A stretch of 64,000 bases of DNA from an uncultured Allosphingosinicella sp. GTDB lineage: Bacteria; Pseudomonadota; Alphaproteobacteria; Sphingomonadales; Sphingomonadaceae. The stretch covers positions 43,082 to 107,081 of the forward strand of contig CAKTCN010000005.1 of the NCBI GenBank assembly GCA_934539295.1, read 5' to 3'. Under the pieces are notes generated by a model that was not told where the DNA came from, did not search any database, and saw only the letters and a program-made list of their open reading frames with translations. This document shows positions 4,280 through 51,740 of the stretch, one piece after another. Every line of letters starts with the position of its first letter. Positions within the stretch are counted from its first letter, which is position 1. The translations under genes and the position numbers were made by a program.

Positions 4280-4370
4280 ATATGTCCCGATCAGAAGGAT
4301 TGATTGCGCGAAGGGCTAATGATCTTCGTTGCTTAGCGCAACGGGTGTGACACGGCACTGAACACGTCCC

Positions 4371-4454
4371 CGTCATTCCCGCGAAAGCGAGAATCCAGCT
4401 TCTTTCTGTCGCCGCCGTGCCGTAGCTGGACTCCCGCTTTCGCGGGAGTGACGG
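4371..4454. repeat. Intergenic inverted repeat, family B
   Basis: An 84-bp palindrome with ends CGTCATTCCCGCG and CGCGGGAGTGACG and inner arms ATCCAGCTTC / GTAGCTGGAC. It is closely related to 2059-2144, and together the two copies bracket the S46 peptidase gene. It lies between the 5' end of that gene and the nucleotidyltransferase gene, so it may overlap promoter sequence. Confidence 0.85.
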
Positions 4455-6025: not shown

Positions 6026-6170
6026 CCCCTCTCCCCTTGCGGGAGAGGGAGGGGCCCGCCGCGAAGCGGTGGGAGGGTGAGGGGAATGCGTCAGAAGCTA
6101 TCCTCGCAAACCCCATCCCCTCACCCCGCTCAGCTTCGCTGAGTCGCCCTCTCCCGCAAGGGGAGAGGGG
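6026..6170. repeat. Intergenic inverted repeat, family A
   Basis: A 145-bp palindrome between two converging stop codons (6023 and 6172). The end hairpins CCCCTCTCCCCTTGCGGGAG and CTCCCGCAAGGGGAGAGGGG are near-perfect inverse copies, and the centre is less conserved. Very similar to 1118-1267. Probable bidirectional transcription terminator. Confidence 0.87.
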
Positions 6171-7242: not shown

Positions 7243-7327
7243 CCGTTCGGGCTGAGCTAGTCGAAGCCCTGCCCTTCCTTTCAGCCATGAAGAAAGGACA
7301 GGGCTTCGACAGGCTCAGCCCAGACGG
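7243..7327. repeat. Intergenic inverted repeat, family D variant (GGGCTGAGC..GTCGAAGCCCTG)
   Basis: An 85-bp palindrome with arms GGGCTGAGCTAGTCGAAGCC and GGCTTCGACAGGCTCAGCCC and a short loop near 7285. It lies in the gap between the cyclotransferase start and the acyl-CoA dehydrogenase stop. Its core GTCGAAG/CTTCGAC is shared with the copies at 19205 and 34316. Confidence 0.83.
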
Positions 7328-19204: not shown

Positions 19205-19306
19205 CCGTTCGTCCCGAGCGATGTCGCGGGATCGGCCGAGCGAAGCCGAGGCTTTTAATCTCGGCTTCGCTCGAATGCGTGTCTCGACTTCGCTCAACAC
19301 GAACGG
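19205..19306. repeat. Intergenic inverted repeat, family D (CCGTTCGT..CGAGCGA..GTCG)
   Basis: A 102-bp imperfect palindrome between the converging astB and pgl genes, with ends CCGTTCGTCCCGAGCGATGT and CTTCGCTCAACACGAACGG. The inside holds a second hairpin (GAGCGAAGCCGAG / CTCGGCTTCGCTC), so it looks like one repeat inserted into another. Related to the copy inside the RNase R gene. Confidence 0.82.
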
Positions 19307-33024: not shown

Positions 33025-33059
33025 GCTCCTTTAGAGTGTGCTTTATCTTGCTCAAACCA

Positions 33060-33190
33060 CGTCATTGCGAGCGTATCGAAGCACGCTAGCGTGACGTAGA
33101 TGCCGTTTGGATTGCTTCCTCGCTGCCGCGAGGCGGCAGTTTATCCTGAGCAACGCCGCAGGCGGCGTCGAAGGGCTCCTCGCAATGACG
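33060..33190. repeat. Composite inverted repeat, family C with an inner insert
   Basis: A 131-bp element whose ends CGTCATTGCG and CGCAATGACG are exact inverse copies. The right arm (ATTGCTTCCTCGCT...CTCCTCGCAATGACG) is that of the copies at 35591 and 50051 but is split by about 50 bp with its own GC-rich hairpin (GCCGCAGGCGGC). It looks like one repeat inserted into another. It lies between the small secreted protein and the convergent rnr stop. Confidence 0.8.
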
Positions 33191-33222: not shown

Positions 33223-35547
33223 CTATCGTCTTTTCCCCTGATGACGGATGTTGGCCGGCCGGCCGCGCTTGCCCTGCGCCGGCGGCTTGCCGCCGCGCCG
33301 CCCATCACGCTTCAGCTGTCGCCGCGGACCCGACCCGTCCTGCGAAGCCTCTGGCAGCGCGAACAGCAGGCTACCGCTGACCGGATTGGCCTCGACGAGC
33401 CGCAGCCTCAGCCGATCGCCCGGCGCAAACACCCGCCCGCTCTCCTCGCCGGTCAGCGTCTGCGCCGCCTCGTCATAACGATAATAGTCGTTGCCGAGCG
33501 TGGACACAGGCACCAGCCCGTCGCCGCCCAATCCCACCACCGTGGCGAAGAAGCCGAAGCTCTGCACGCCGGTGATCCGGCAATCCACTTCCTCGCCGAC
33601 GCGTTCGGACAGATAGGCAGCAACATAACGGTCGATCGTCTCGCGCTCCGCCTCCATCGCGCGGCGTTCGTGGCGGGAGATGAGTTCGCCCGTCACCTCC
33701 ATCGACGCGGCCTCCGCATCGCTCAACCCGCCTTCGCCCAGCCCATAAGCACGCACCAGCGCACGATGCACCACCAGGTCCGAATAGCGGCGGATCGGGC
33801 TGGTGAAATGGGCGTAGGATCCGAGCGCCAAGCCGAAATGGCCGTGATTTTCCGGGCTATAATAAGCCTGCGTTTGGGTGCGCAGGATCTGCTCCATCAC
33901 CTGCGCCGCGAAATCCTCCTCGCGCGTCTTGGCGATGATGTGGTTGAACGTCGCCGGCCGGATCACCTGCCCCAGCGCGAACTCGATCCCGAACGTCTTG
34001 AGATAGTCGCGCAGCGCCACCAGCTTCTCGCGGCTGGGCGGCTCATGGTCGCGGTACATGACCGGCGCCTTCTTCGCCTCCAGCGCCTTGGCCGCCGCGA
34101 CATTGGCGGCGATCATATAATCCTCGATAAGCTTGTGCGCATCCAGCCGCTCGCGCGGCGCGACGGACAGGATGCGCCCCTTCTCGTCCAGCATAACGCG
34201 GCGTTCGGGCAGATCGAGGTCGAGCGGCGCCCTCTTCTCGCGGGCGCGGTACATTGCGTTCCAGCAGTCCCAGAGGGGCACGAGGGTGGACTCCACCAAC
34301 TCCCCATCCACACCGCCGTTCGTTTCGAGCGAAGTCGAGAAACCCTGCGCCTCGCTCCCGGCGTCTCGACTTCGCTCGACACGAACGGCATTTCGCGCAT
34401 CGATCGCCGCCTGCGCATCCTCATAGGCGATATTGGCCGCGATTCGCACCCGCGCGCGCGTGAATCGGAAGCTCTTCATCGCCCCGTCCTTCGTCACCTG
34501 CATGTGGCAGGCGAGCGCCGCGCGATCCTCTCCTTCCTTCAGCGAGCAGACATCGGCCGACAATGTCTCCGGCAACATCGGCACCACCCGGTCGGGGAAA
34601 TAGACGCTGTTGCCACGCTTGCGCGCTTCCTTGTCGAGCATCGTGCCGGGCCGCACGTAGAAGCTGACGTCCGCGATCGCGACCACCGCCTTCCACCCGC
34701 CCGCATTGGCCGGATCGTCGTCGGGCGTCGCCCACACCGCATCGTCATGATCGCGCGCATCGGCCGGATCGATCGCCACGATCGCCAGGTGCGTCAGGTC
34801 CTCGCGCCCGCCCAATTTCTGCGCGGCGGAGCGCTCGGCGTCCTCGACCAGCCCCTCGGGGAATTCGTTGGGAATGCCATGCTTGTGGATGGCGATCAGG
34901 CTGAAGCTGCGCGGCGCGAATGGATCGCCCAGGATGGTGTCGACCCGTGCGCCTATCCGCGGCGGGCGCCCGGTCTTCTCGGCCAGCACCAGGTCGCCCG
35001 GCTCCGCCTCGCCACGATCGGTAATCGGCAGCTCGCGCCGCTCGCGCTTGTCGACGGGCTTCAGCCAGTAACTCGTCCCCTCCAGATGCACGACGCCCAG
35101 CACCAGTTCGCTGCCCTTCAGCAGCTTCTTCATGGGGAAGGCGATCAGGCCATTCCCCTTCTCCTCGGTGCGCGCGAGGATGCGGTCGCCCGGGCCGAAC
35201 GCACCGCCCCGCCCGCGCTCCCGCACGCGCAGGCGCGGCTGCGGCGTGTCATTCTCCCACCGCTCGGGTACTGCCCACACATTGCCGCCATCGTCCACGT
35301 CGGTGACGCGCAGCACCGTCACTTTCGGCACGCCGCCCATCCTGTGGAACGCACGGCCAGGGGCGGACTCGATCAGCCCTTCGTCGCCCATATCCTTGAG
35401 CAAGGCCTTGAGCGCGATCTTGTCCTGCGCCGACAGCCCGAACGCCTTGGAGATCTCCCGCTTGCCGGCGGGCGCGTCGGAGGTCTCGATGAACTGGAGG
35501 ATCTGCTCGCGGGTGGGAAGTCCGGTGCGCTGGGGTCGTTTAGCCAT
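33223..35547 (-). CDS. rnr: Ribonuclease R with a repeat-derived in-frame insertion
   Basis: Processive 3'-5' exoribonuclease. The 774-residue protein starts with a winged-helix domain (about 1-60), followed by cold-shock domains, the RNB catalytic domain with DPADARDHDDAVWA (metal-binding aspartates), a CDYxxY-like region HFTSPIRRYSDLVVHR, an S1 domain (about 620-710) and a basic Arg/Lys/Gly tail. Residues about 387-411 (AVRVERSRD...LETNGG) are coded by a palindromic family D repeat and are not part of any RNase R I know. They fall between a beta-strand and a helix of the RNB domain, so activity is probably kept. Confidence 0.93.
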   Translation of the reverse strand: MAKRPQRTGLPTREQILQFIETSDAPAGKREISKAFGLSAQDKIALKALLKDMGDEGLIESAPGRAFHRMGGVPKVTVLRVTDVDDGGNVWAVPERWENDTPQPRLRVRERGRGGAFGPGDRILARTEEKGNGLIAFPMKKLLKGSELVLGVVHLEGTSYWLKPVDKRERRELPITDRGEAEPGDLVLAEKTGRPPRIGARVDTILGDPFAPRSFSLIAIHKHGIPNEFPEGLVEDAERSAAQKLGGREDLTHLAIVAIDPADARDHDDAVWATPDDDPANAGGWKAVVAIADVSFYVRPGTMLDKEARKRGNSVYFPDRVVPMLPETLSADVCSLKEGEDRAALACHMQVTKDGAMKSFRFTRARVRIAANIAYEDAQAAIDARNAVRVERSRDAGSEAQGFSTSLETNGGVDGELVESTLVPLWDCWNAMYRAREKRAPLDLDLPERRVMLDEKGRILSVAPRERLDAHKLIEDYMIAANVAAAKALEAKKAPVMYRDHEPPSREKLVALRDYLKTFGIEFALGQVIRPATFNHIIAKTREEDFAAQVMEQILRTQTQAYYSPENHGHFGLALGSYAHFTSPIRRYSDLVVHRALVRAYGLGEGGLSDAEAASMEVTGELISRHERRAMEAERETIDRYVAAYLSERVGEEVDCRITGVQSFGFFATVVGLGGDGLVPVSTLGNDYYRYDEAAQTLTGEESGRVFAPGDRLRLRLVEANPVSGSLLFALPEASQDGSGPRRQLKRDGRRGGKPPAQGKRGRPANIRHQGKRR
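34316..34388. repeat. Family D palindrome inside the rnr coding sequence
   Basis: A 73-bp inverted repeat. The left arm 34316-34340 and right arm 34364-34388 match in 24 of 25 positions (CCGTTCGTnTCGAGCGAAGT core) around a 23-bp loop. It is the same type of element as in the gaps at 19205 and 51638. The reading frame of rnr is open through it, adding about 25 residues; with flanking bases the insert is a multiple of three. Confidence 0.9.
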
Positions 35548-35561
35548 ATCGTATCAACTTT

Positions 35562-35671
35562 CGTCACCCCGGACTTGATCCCCTATCCGTGATTGTGAGC
35601 GTAGCGAAGCAATCCAGGGCCAGCTCGAAGGTCCACTGGATTGCCGCGTCGCTACGCTCCTCGCAATGACG
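35562..35671. repeat. Inverted repeat, family C, with a partial family F end
   Basis: The main part (about 35589-35671) is a palindrome with TGAGCGTAGCGAAGCAATCC on one side and GGATTGCCGCGTCGCTACGC on the other, as at 50051. Directly before it lies CGTCACCCCGGACTTGATCC (35562-35581), which looks like half of the family F element seen at 54289. It separates the rnr start from the M28 peptidase stop, so any rnr promoter must lie within or next to it. Confidence 0.8.
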
Positions 35672-35672
35672 T

Positions 35673-37037
35673 TTAGGGGTTCGCAGGCGGCGCCACATAA
35701 GGCTTGAACGCGCCGCCGGGCACGGCCGAGGCGACCGGGCTCTCCGATCCATCTTTCCCCACCGCCGAGACGCCGAATACCCAATCGTCCACCCGCACGC
35801 CCTTCAGCACATGCCCGGTGGCACCACCCGGCACACGCACCGAATCCTCCCAGTTCGACGCCTCGGTCGGCCGCCAGCGCACCACATAGGCCGCCGCTCC
35901 CGGCACGGCCGTCCAGCTCAGCGTCGTGTCGGTCGAGACGGCGCCCTCGGCTTTCGGTTCGGGCGGAGACGGCGCGCTCGCCAGCGCAGCCAACGCCCCC
36001 ACGTTGAGCTGCGTCACCCGGCGCAGATAGGGGAAGTCCATCTTGTCGATCGTGTCGCCAAACTCGCGGCCAGCCTCGGTGCGCAGGTCCTGATGCTGCT
36101 GGTCGTAATTCTCGATCGCGACCGAGAAGCGCACCGCCGGGAAGCCGGCGTTGAGCAACTCAGTATGATCCCCGCCCCGCCCGAACCGGTCGTTGCGCCA
36201 GATCTGCCGCACGTCGAGCCCCAGGCCGAGATCGCCCGCTAGCTCATCCAGATAGCGCGACAGGTTGCGTGACGGGCTATCATTCTCGCCGCCCAAACTG
36301 CGCTGATGCGCCGCCAGCGCCTCGCGCCCCTGCCAGCGCGGGCCTTCGGAGAAAATCCGGACATGCGCATCGTCGCATTTGCCGTCCGAACCGCAGCTGT
36401 TGCCGATAATGTCGTTGTTGAGGTTGGCGACGACGTTCCATCCCTGCGCCTTGGCGTAATCGGCCAGGATCTTGCCGCCCAGCAGCCCCTGCTCCTCACC
36501 CGACAGGACCGCATAGACGATGGTCGCGGGGAACTTGTGCTTGGACAGCACCCGCGCCGCCTCGATGACCGCAGCCGTGCCCGACCCGTCGTCATTGGCG
36601 CCCGGCGCATCGGAGGTGAAGTCCATCACGTCGGTCACCCGGCTGTCGATATGGCCGGAGATGATGACGACCTGGTCGGGCCGCGTCGTACCCTTCTGCA
36701 CCGCCAGCACGTCCCACACCTTGGTCGGGGTCGGCACCCTCCGCCCGGTGACCGTGTCCTCCGGCTTGGCGATCGTCAGGCACCCGCGGCAGTCGCGCGA
36801 GATGCGGCCGAACTCCGCCTCAGTCCACCGCAGCGAAGCGCCGATGCCGCGCTTCGGATCGGTCTGCGACGACAAGGTATGCCGCGTGCCGAAGCTCACC
36901 AGTGTCTCGATGTCGCCGCGCAGCCGCTGTTCGCTCACGTCGCTTGCCACCTCGTGCAAAGGCGGCGCGGGGAGAGCGGGGGCGGCGGAGGCGAGGAGCG
37001 CGGCGGCGGCAAGGTGCATCTTCATGGCACCTGACAT
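35673..37037 (-). CDS. M28 family zinc peptidase with fibronectin-type C-terminal domain
   Basis: Secreted aminopeptidase-like protein of 454 residues. A signal peptide ends near APALPAP. The M28 zinc-binding residues are visible: SGHIDSR, GANDDGSG, SGEEQGLLG, NLNNDIIG and GGDHTEL. After the catalytic domain (about 60-350) comes a fibronectin type III-like domain (TLSWTAVPGAAAYVVRWRP). The ATG at 37037 has GGAG at good spacing; 37025 is also possible. It lies downstream of nothing on its strand and is divergent from the ABC transporter genes. Confidence 0.9.
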   Translation of the reverse strand: MSGAMKMHLAAAALLASAAPALPAPPLHEVASDVSEQRLRGDIETLVSFGTRHTLSSQTDPKRGIGASLRWTEAEFGRISRDCRGCLTIAKPEDTVTGRRVPTPTKVWDVLAVQKGTTRPDQVVIISGHIDSRVTDVMDFTSDAPGANDDGSGTAAVIEAARVLSKHKFPATIVYAVLSGEEQGLLGGKILADYAKAQGWNVVANLNNDIIGNSCGSDGKCDDAHVRIFSEGPRWQGREALAAHQRSLGGENDSPSRNLSRYLDELAGDLGLGLDVRQIWRNDRFGRGGDHTELLNAGFPAVRFSVAIENYDQQHQDLRTEAGREFGDTIDKMDFPYLRRVTQLNVGALAALASAPSPPEPKAEGAVSTDTTLSWTAVPGAAAYVVRWRPTEASNWEDSVRVPGGATGHVLKGVRVDDWVFGVSAVGKDGSESPVASAVPGGAFKPYVAPPANP

Positions 37038-41663: not shown

Positions 41664-41805
41664 CCCCCTCCCCTTCAAGGGAGGGGCTGGGGGTGGGTGA
41701 GAAAAGGCGAGGCTCGATGCCTCGACTTTTCTCTGTGCGCTGAATTCCTAGGCGCGCAGACGCGCGCACCCACTCCCAACCCCTCCCTGCTTGCAGGGAG
41801 GGGAG
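41664..41805. repeat. Intergenic inverted repeat, family A variant
   Basis: A 142-bp palindrome between converging genes. Ends are CCCCCTCCCCTTCAAGGGAG and CTCCCTGCTTGCAGGGAGGG, followed inward by GGGGGTGGGTG / CACCCACTCCC. It lacks a T-run but its long stem could end transcription from both sides. Confidence 0.8.
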
Positions 41806-50033: not shown

Positions 50034-50050
50034 CCCACACCTAAACACCT

Positions 50051-50134
50051 CGTCATTGCGAGCGTAGCGAAGCAATCCAGGGCGGACTCTAAGGCCCGCT
50101 GGATTGCTTCGTCGCTACGCTCCTCGCAATGACG
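50051..50134. repeat. Intergenic inverted repeat, family C (CGTCATTGCGAGCGTAGCGAAGC)
   Basis: An 84-bp nearly perfect palindrome. The left arm CGTCATTGCGAGCGTAGCGA and right arm TCGCTACGCTCCTCGCAATG are inverse copies, as are GCAATCCAGGGC / GCCCGCTGGATTGC. It lies between the converging M13 peptidase and glpK genes, 26 bp before the glpK stop. Confidence 0.88.
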
Positions 50135-50159
50135 AAGCGTGGGTCGCAACGACGGAGTG

Positions 50160-51637: not shown

Positions 51638-51740
51638 CGTTCGTCCCGAGCGAAGTCGAGGGGGCGCTTGCACGCACCGACGGTGCGGCTGCTGAGATTA
51701 CCAAAGGATCAACCACCTCGTTCGTCCCGAGCGAGGTTGG
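51638..51740. repeat. Two direct half-copies of repeat family D in the glpK-glpD gap
   Basis: CGTTCGTCCCGAGCGAAGTC (from 51638) and CGTTCGTCCCGAGCGAGGTT (from 51719) are direct copies 81 bp apart. Neither has its inverse partner nearby, unlike the complete palindromes at 19205 and 34316. They lie in the 149-bp divergent promoter region of glpK and glpD. Confidence 0.75.

Follow-up and report, generated by a model that had tools for sequence, protein, structure and literature searches.

A REP-like palindrome in frame in RNase R of a sphingomonad, at a loop probably entered repeatedly by different repeat types

Introduction

Among palindromes that code for protein, those of Rickettsia are the best known. 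In REPINs, two REPs are inverted around a spacer, and such units occur in many copies per genome. Passages of PMC3767692 and PMC2229807 describe the Rickettsia palindromic elements (RPE) as dispersed palindromes that lie between genes and also in frame in conserved genes, and a guanylate kinase (Gmk) that bears an RPE stays active according to the latter. Where RPE share a site, the relevant part of PMC3767692 leaves open whether the site is a hotspot for insertions of different origin or holds one insertion that has diverged; a common origin is favoured there for RPE-4, RPE-6 and RPE-7. Intragenic REPs of the GTAG and CGTC super-families are described in sections of PMC3733652 as REP dimers in conserved genes, including tRNA synthetases and truB, with sphingomonads among the hosts, and in Xanthomonas recB different REPs were found at about the same place. 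The words "ribonuclease" and "RNase" are absent from the main text of that paper, whose list of host genes is in its supplement. A literature search, judged mostly by title and with subscription papers (e.g. Ogata 2000 and later) outside its scope, returned no title that deals with palindromic elements in the RNase R of sphingomonads.

In this study, we focused on a palindromic element in the RNase R gene (rnr) of an uncultured Allosphingosinicella sp. The window, that is, the whole stretch of DNA that was analysed, is 64,000 nucleotides long. By description the element is like RPE, since palindromes of its kind are both intergenic and in frame in ORFs, in the window as well as in a relative, genome G130. 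It measures 75 bp, against the 100-150 bp cited for RPE in PMC3767692, where Table 1 also gives an RPE-4 of length 84. Unlike RPE, it belongs to a different clade, and several repeat types occur at one loop on many branches. The sequence-only reading of this DNA had regarded such elements as not well described in sphingomonads; this was too strong, because intragenic REPs of E. litoralis and S. alaskensis had been reported in 2013, as sections of PMC3733652 state. What is new here is the heavily reused RNase R loop, repeat types outside the CGTC and GTAG kinds, and a strong preference of reading frame. Those sections of PMC3733652 describe neither recurrence on this scale nor a preferred frame.

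Materials and Methods

An initial contig scan gave 19 loci, of which only L001 and L003 were from sphingomonads, and a genome search was used thereafter. In this search rnr was found in 389 of 397 genomes of one family. The loci used were 110 of the higher-scoring rnr genes (L022-L051 and L052-L131) and a random 60 of the 277 others, 30 of which gave loci; in 28 of the remaining 30 the two matched pieces lay no more than 24 nt apart, so that no long insert fits between them, and G311 and G153 held fragments. The palindrome test set comprised 143 genes (the window, L001, L003, L022-L131 and L196-L225). In addition, 120 listed proteins, the window's included, were aligned at the loop. F1 to F8 are our own type labels for loop elements, assigned by peptide signature. 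For other host genes, 24 genomes were chosen for their element-like rnr loops (23 labelled and one, G157, by eye, its L041 having been taken for a decayed element but being unlabelled in the counts), so that rates among them are not general. A FastTree tree was built from alignments without the loop, the second site described below and both ends.

Two loci were peculiar in themselves. The rnr gene of L003 (Sphingomonadales UBA7473) is split at the RNase R loop into two pieces whose frames differ, and in NZ_CP155750.1 rnr lies on an 853-kb replicon that is listed as a plasmid of Sphingomonas parapaucimobilis.

Results and Discussion

The palindrome in rnr

The gene and the element within it are as follows.

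33223..35547, minus strand: rnr, RNase R, an open frame of 774 aa (coordinates include the stop)
34315..34389, minus strand: palindromic element of type F1, a head-to-head dimer forming an inverted repeat; residues 387-411 read AVRVERSRDAGSEAQGFSTSLETNG
34364..34389, minus strand: arm 1 in the coding direction, read AVRVERSR
34315..34340, minus strand: arm 2 in the coding direction, read STSLETNG

The protein has Pfam matches to CSD2 (161-230), RNB (248-600) and S1 (649-719), and the element lies inside the RNB match. Its 26-nt arms pair at 25 of 26 positions (96%) with 23 nt between them; the 73-bp repeat with 25-bp arms that had been noticed at 34316-34388 was thus confirmed, the repeat search adding one base on each side, as was the frame that stays open through it. 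The element is stop-free in all six frames, and none of 100 codon-order shuffles of the window loop matched its repeat score. Judged by eye and for this copy only, its flanks (..GCGAAAT and GGTGTGG..) contain no direct repeat of the kind left by target-site duplication. Its outer ends are GCCGTTCG and CGAACGGC and lack a terminal CGTC (or TGTC/CCTC) tetranucleotide, unlike the rnr elements of L031 and L109, which begin with CGTC or GCGTC. The window type, with neither a CGTC nor a GTAG end, differs in this from the two REP super-families as characterized in sections of PMC3733652.

That the insert is an assembly or sequencing artefact, or that the gene is a pseudogene, is scarcely credible: nothing beyond the oddity of the insert favours such a view, and against it stand the open frame with its CSD2, RNB and S1 matches, the listing of the protein on 3 contigs and the preferred reading frames found in many genomes.

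The coding-strand RNA of the element folds at -58.2 kcal/mol (z -6.5). An Rfam search of 34250-34450 gave nine matches up to an E value of 1, all to microRNA precursor families; they were taken as generic hairpins since their scores were far below the gathering scores. RNase R digests structured RNA. The palindrome could have been co-opted for the regulation of rnr, through its peptide or through the hairpin in the mRNA, for example as a structured substrate by which RNase R tunes its own message. We consider such a role very improbable in spite of the stability of the hairpin, because 204 of 256 distinct RNase R sequences carry no element, the same elements are found in other, unrelated genes, and the types differ between near-identical proteins.

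The predicted loop and the loss of a native segment

An AlphaFold2 model of the window protein based on 48 sequences had a mean pLDDT of 83.6, and its best Foldseek match was the nearest solved relative, E. coli RNase R (5xgu). Helices at 375-395 and 415-439 of the model flank a stretch with pLDDT below 50 at 399-408; the means of successive ten-residue blocks from 381-390 to 411-420 were 84, 53, 46 and 88. The part between the helices corresponds to the following codons.

34306..34362, minus strand: codons of residues 396-414, between the model helices (computed from the residue numbers; AlphaFold2)

The insert therefore falls in a loop of low confidence, probably disordered, between two helices of the RNB domain. 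Modelling had been suggested as a check for a surface loop; at this place between helices the insert may be exposed.

Intact loops in the family span 19 to 106 residues, most often in a short form of about 20-29. The group that includes the nearest relatives of the window has a loop of 44-54 residues with an SSPxC motif. The window loop, of 51 residues, is about 24 longer than the 27 residues of the short-loop L121, and an alignment with short-loop sphingomonads accordingly leaves a gap of about this size. However, the clean gain of about 27 residues that the sequence-only reading had expected was not borne out against the closest relatives (P0011, P0017, P0013, L022 and L107). In these a conserved native segment of SSPxCxMPE type is present, whereas the window has the element and no such segment, so that the net change in length is small. 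In 27 of the 29 element-bearing homologues among P0002-P0120 the native segment is kept beside the element. From these alignments, the usual event in the homologue group with the SSPxC segment is insertion before that segment, and the window shows both element insertion and loss of the segment, in either order, which amounts to replacement and not to a clean insertion. The comparison with Rickettsia, which the sequence-only reading had drawn, is thus right in kind (a dispersed, mostly intergenic palindrome, in frame, in a predicted loop) but not as regards a clean insertion. Relatives lack this particular copy, as had been supposed; the loop itself, however, is repeatedly filled by different types.

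A dispersed repeat family

Two related sequences lie in intergenic gaps of the window.

19205..19306, no strand assigned: intergenic copy related to the rnr element, where astB and a Glucosamine_iso-family gene converge; arm at 19282-19306
51638..51737, no strand assigned: looser related arms in the gap between an FGGY kinase gene and an FAD oxidoreductase gene

A search with the 25-nt arm, allowing up to 3 mismatches, gave 3 matches in the window (both rnr arms and 19282-19306) against 0.00 in 100 shuffles. Both gaps, which had been proposed to hold the same repeat type, are flanked by Pfam-supported genes; the arm at 19282 is close to the rnr arm (1 mismatch), but the copy at 51638, although in the same direct-repeat family, is looser (71% identity over 28 nt).

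Half-sites of F1 were counted in five relatives with a 22-nt arm pattern (up to 2 mismatches) and with the reversed pattern as a control. The counts were 58 in G130, 22 in G281, 19 in G055, 1 in G298 and 0 in G277, and the control gave 0 in all five. A similar pattern gave 110 half-sites in G206, and a second type, F6 (TTCGACAAGCTCAGCC...), gave 109 in G130, each against 0 for the control. Many of the F1 half-sites in relatives form head-to-head pairs with varied spacers, and the rest are single halves. The architecture of REP-type dimers, in which two inverted copies enclose a spacer and many copies are dispersed, is shared by the window element and its relatives. The window element is one copy of a dispersed dimer family that is mostly intergenic.

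Recurrence at the loop

A loop inverted repeat scoring at least 12 was present in 23 of the 143 rnr genes of the test set, and in 21 of the 23 no match was obtained from any of 100 codon shuffles. By set, elements were carried by 23 of the 110 higher-scoring loci, 29 of the 119 listed homologues and 0 of the 30 random-stratum loci; in the low-scoring part of the family the loop site thus looks empty. After 5 duplicate rows had been merged, 52 of 256 distinct RNase R sequences had a loop element: F1 18, F4 9, F6 9, F5 8, F3 3, F2 3, F7 1 and F8 1. Of these assignments 24 were made from DNA and 28 from the peptide signature only (all 9 F6 and 7 of the 8 F5 included). L126 (G373) is labelled, yet has no repeat scoring 10 or more. 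P0103, whose F6 match fell on native PELVEG, was dropped before this count. F1, F2 and F6 share a CGTTCG end and on sequence may be distant kin, and F7 and F8 may be forms of F3; the claim is therefore held to at least four clearly different types (F1/F2/F6, F3, F4 and F5).

On the tree, for which L003 was outside the input, the type labels need 46 changes and presence or absence 38; both are estimates, since the tree is a quick one with 74 of 253 inner branches below 80. P0013 and P0020, which carry an F6-type and an F1-type insert, respectively, at the main site, have an identity of 0.981 outside two loops. An F6-type insert is present in P0087 and missing from its 0.969-identical relative P0040. 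Such near-identical pairs speak against one ancestral insert that diverged in place.

A single ancient insertion in the RNase R loop, diversified into the present types, would account for the constant position of the inserts, and the CGTTCG end of F1, F2 and F6 would fit some distant kinship. We regard this history as highly unlikely. Besides the differences between near-identical proteins, the element is missing from 204 of 256 sequences and 52 elements require 46 label changes; F1 and F6, the two types traced through whole genomes, recur as many near-identical copies at other places of a genome that bears the element, and the arms of F3, F4 and F5 look unrelated to F1. The RNase R loop is rather a landing site that different palindrome types have reused on many branches.

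A scan of the whole gene at a threshold of 13 gave 47 matches, the strong ones mostly at the main loop. A second site near residue 246 is filled in four genes (L107, L108, L109 and L210). Further repeats include a strong one near 564 in L210 and two that lie before the start or at it; the remaining ones, with scores of 13-16, are probably chance matches. P0013 and P0020 also differ at residues ~244-285, where different inserts are present in a second variable loop before the RNB domain.

Other host genes

The sequence-only reading had suggested a search for further repeats within genes. Run in relatives, this search was fruitful, with F1 and F6 elements in valS, coaBC, ileS, pccA and others. 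G130 has 39 F1 sites, and Pfam was run on 20 ORFs that cover 17 of these. F1 dimers were found in valS, in the inter-domain linker of CoaBC and in rnr (L171, the same gene as L107), so that at least three genes are hosts. From 30 of the 109 F6 half-sites of this genome 28 elements were obtained, with hosts comprising the second rnr site, an ABC ATPase, a DEAD-box helicase, methylmalonyl-CoA mutase, an E2 linker and a second valS site. In G206, 30 of 110 half-sites gave 23 elements, hosted by ileS, pccA and valS. Cases in FlgI, BioB and MurB and several G130 sites N-terminal to the Pfam match were left uncounted, as the gene may truly start downstream of the element; half-sites in pccB-like, putA and MFS ORFs were likewise not counted as insertions.

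Among the 24 chosen genomes, valS and coaBC were each found in 22, a loop being scored as occupied when its repeat score was 15 or more. The valS loop near query residue 507-521 was filled in 12 of 22 and that near 726-731 in 4, and the coaBC linker was filled in 6 of 22. ValRS and CoaBC therefore have landing loops similar to that of RNase R. In L238 (G326) and L242 (G336), two palindromic elements were seen side by side in one ValRS loop.

These data also bear on the possibility that the loop DNA is a sequence-specific target of a transposase, in which case the mechanism would direct the insertions and other sites need not be lethal. The many separate events at one loop are what such targeting would produce. 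It is nevertheless unlikely, since the elements start at varied points, about 2 to 15 residues past AAID, all three frames are found for arm 1 in rnr, and valS, coaBC, ileS, pccA and other genes also receive elements. The presence of several different repeats of this kind in one loop suggests that mobile DNA is inserted again and again where the protein can accept it.

Reading frame

Among 28 cases of F1/F2-type arm 2 in rnr, valS and coaBC, 27 have the STSLxTNG reading frame, the exception being L210, at another site; two arm-2 matches with 4 mismatches on native PLDLDLPE codons (L024 and L044) had been dropped to leave these 28. Against an expectation of one third, the binomial probability is 2.5e-12, and, as the cases are not fully independent, it may be noted that 15 of 15 would still give 7e-8. 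Arm 1 (n = 30) is read as PFxSSEVE in 22, RSSRAKSR in 7 and VRVERSR in 1, the last being the window copy, which is thus outside the preferred arm-1 frame. The spacing class that puts both arms in their preferred frames, assessed in G130 and G206 (the latter among the 100 matches listed), was seen in 5 of 5 in-gene dimers and in 17 of 44 others, some of which may also lie in genes (Fisher 0.014). Arm 1 of F6 is read as VRxE[PL]VE in 6 of 6 Pfam-supported genes, and arm 2 in all three frames; the main-loop F6 set is unusable for this purpose because its labels were drawn by those very peptides.

Most of the six frames are open in the eight elements tested. On the sequences compared, the frame bias of arm 2 points to selection on the encoded peptide, and the simplest reading would be that frames are selected against when their peptides are hydrophobic or strongly basic.

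Mobilisation and proposed explanation

The family has the inverted-pair design and the high copy number of the REPIN/RAYT system. However, a search with PF01797 (Y1_Tnp) matched a Y1 transposase in only 6 of the 24 chosen genomes and gave no match in the other 18 or, in particular, in G130. A resident RAYT therefore does not seem to be needed at present, and mobilisation by RAYT is weakened as an explanation.

We consider it likely, with a probability of about 0.85, that non-autonomous palindromes of the REP-dimer type land repeatedly and independently in a few tolerant loops, including that of RNase R in the window. The window insert would be one short head-to-head palindrome that landed in frame in a flexible loop, and it would have been kept since added length is tolerated there and its peptide is soluble and unstructured. 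The main loop, the RNase R site near 246, the ValRS loop and the CoaBC linker would have been entered in separate, repeated landings by different palindrome types, and in the window lineage the native loop segment would also have been lost. This explanation takes the copies to be still mobile, the loop to be exposed and the insertion to be near neutral, with both site and frame filtered by selection on the peptide.

It is more doubtful, but possible, that sphingomonads carry a standing and fast-turning supply of coding-compatible palindromes, for which the loops of RNase R, ValRS and CoaBC are lasting insertion hubs. If so, core enzymes would retain elements mainly in the frame of a soluble, disordered peptide, elements would be gained, swapped and lost between close relatives, and the repeat DNA itself may be selected to encode tolerable protein. 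In this family 397 genomes were searched, and one loop shows many events that appear to be separate and involve clearly different types; the hotspot question, the role of the reading frame and the cost of the inserts are therefore directly testable in sphingomonads. The elements also show one route by which disordered segments arise in conserved enzymes.

Other palindromes in the window

Ten inverted repeats (score of at least 14, spacer up to 120) were obtained when the window was scanned, and among those in ORFs of at least 200 aa the rnr element alone sits within a Pfam match. The repeat at 1118-1267 falls in the ORF at 904-2055 (residues ~72-121), N-terminal to an Exo_endo_phos match (131-375), and it may lie 5' of the true start of this ORF. 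An inverted repeat at 41678-41788, with 22-nt arms 67 nt apart, is located in two overlapping ORFs without a Pfam match. Copies of another palindrome family, of CGTCATTGCGAGCGTAGCGAAGCAATCCAG type, are present on both sides of rnr (33056-33190 and 35584-35685) and also at 50047-50148. The repeats at 2059-2144, 4370-4454, 1118-1267, 6026-6170 and 7249-7321 apparently represent three further palindrome families, which by eye are of the same kinds as those in the rnr loop of relatives.
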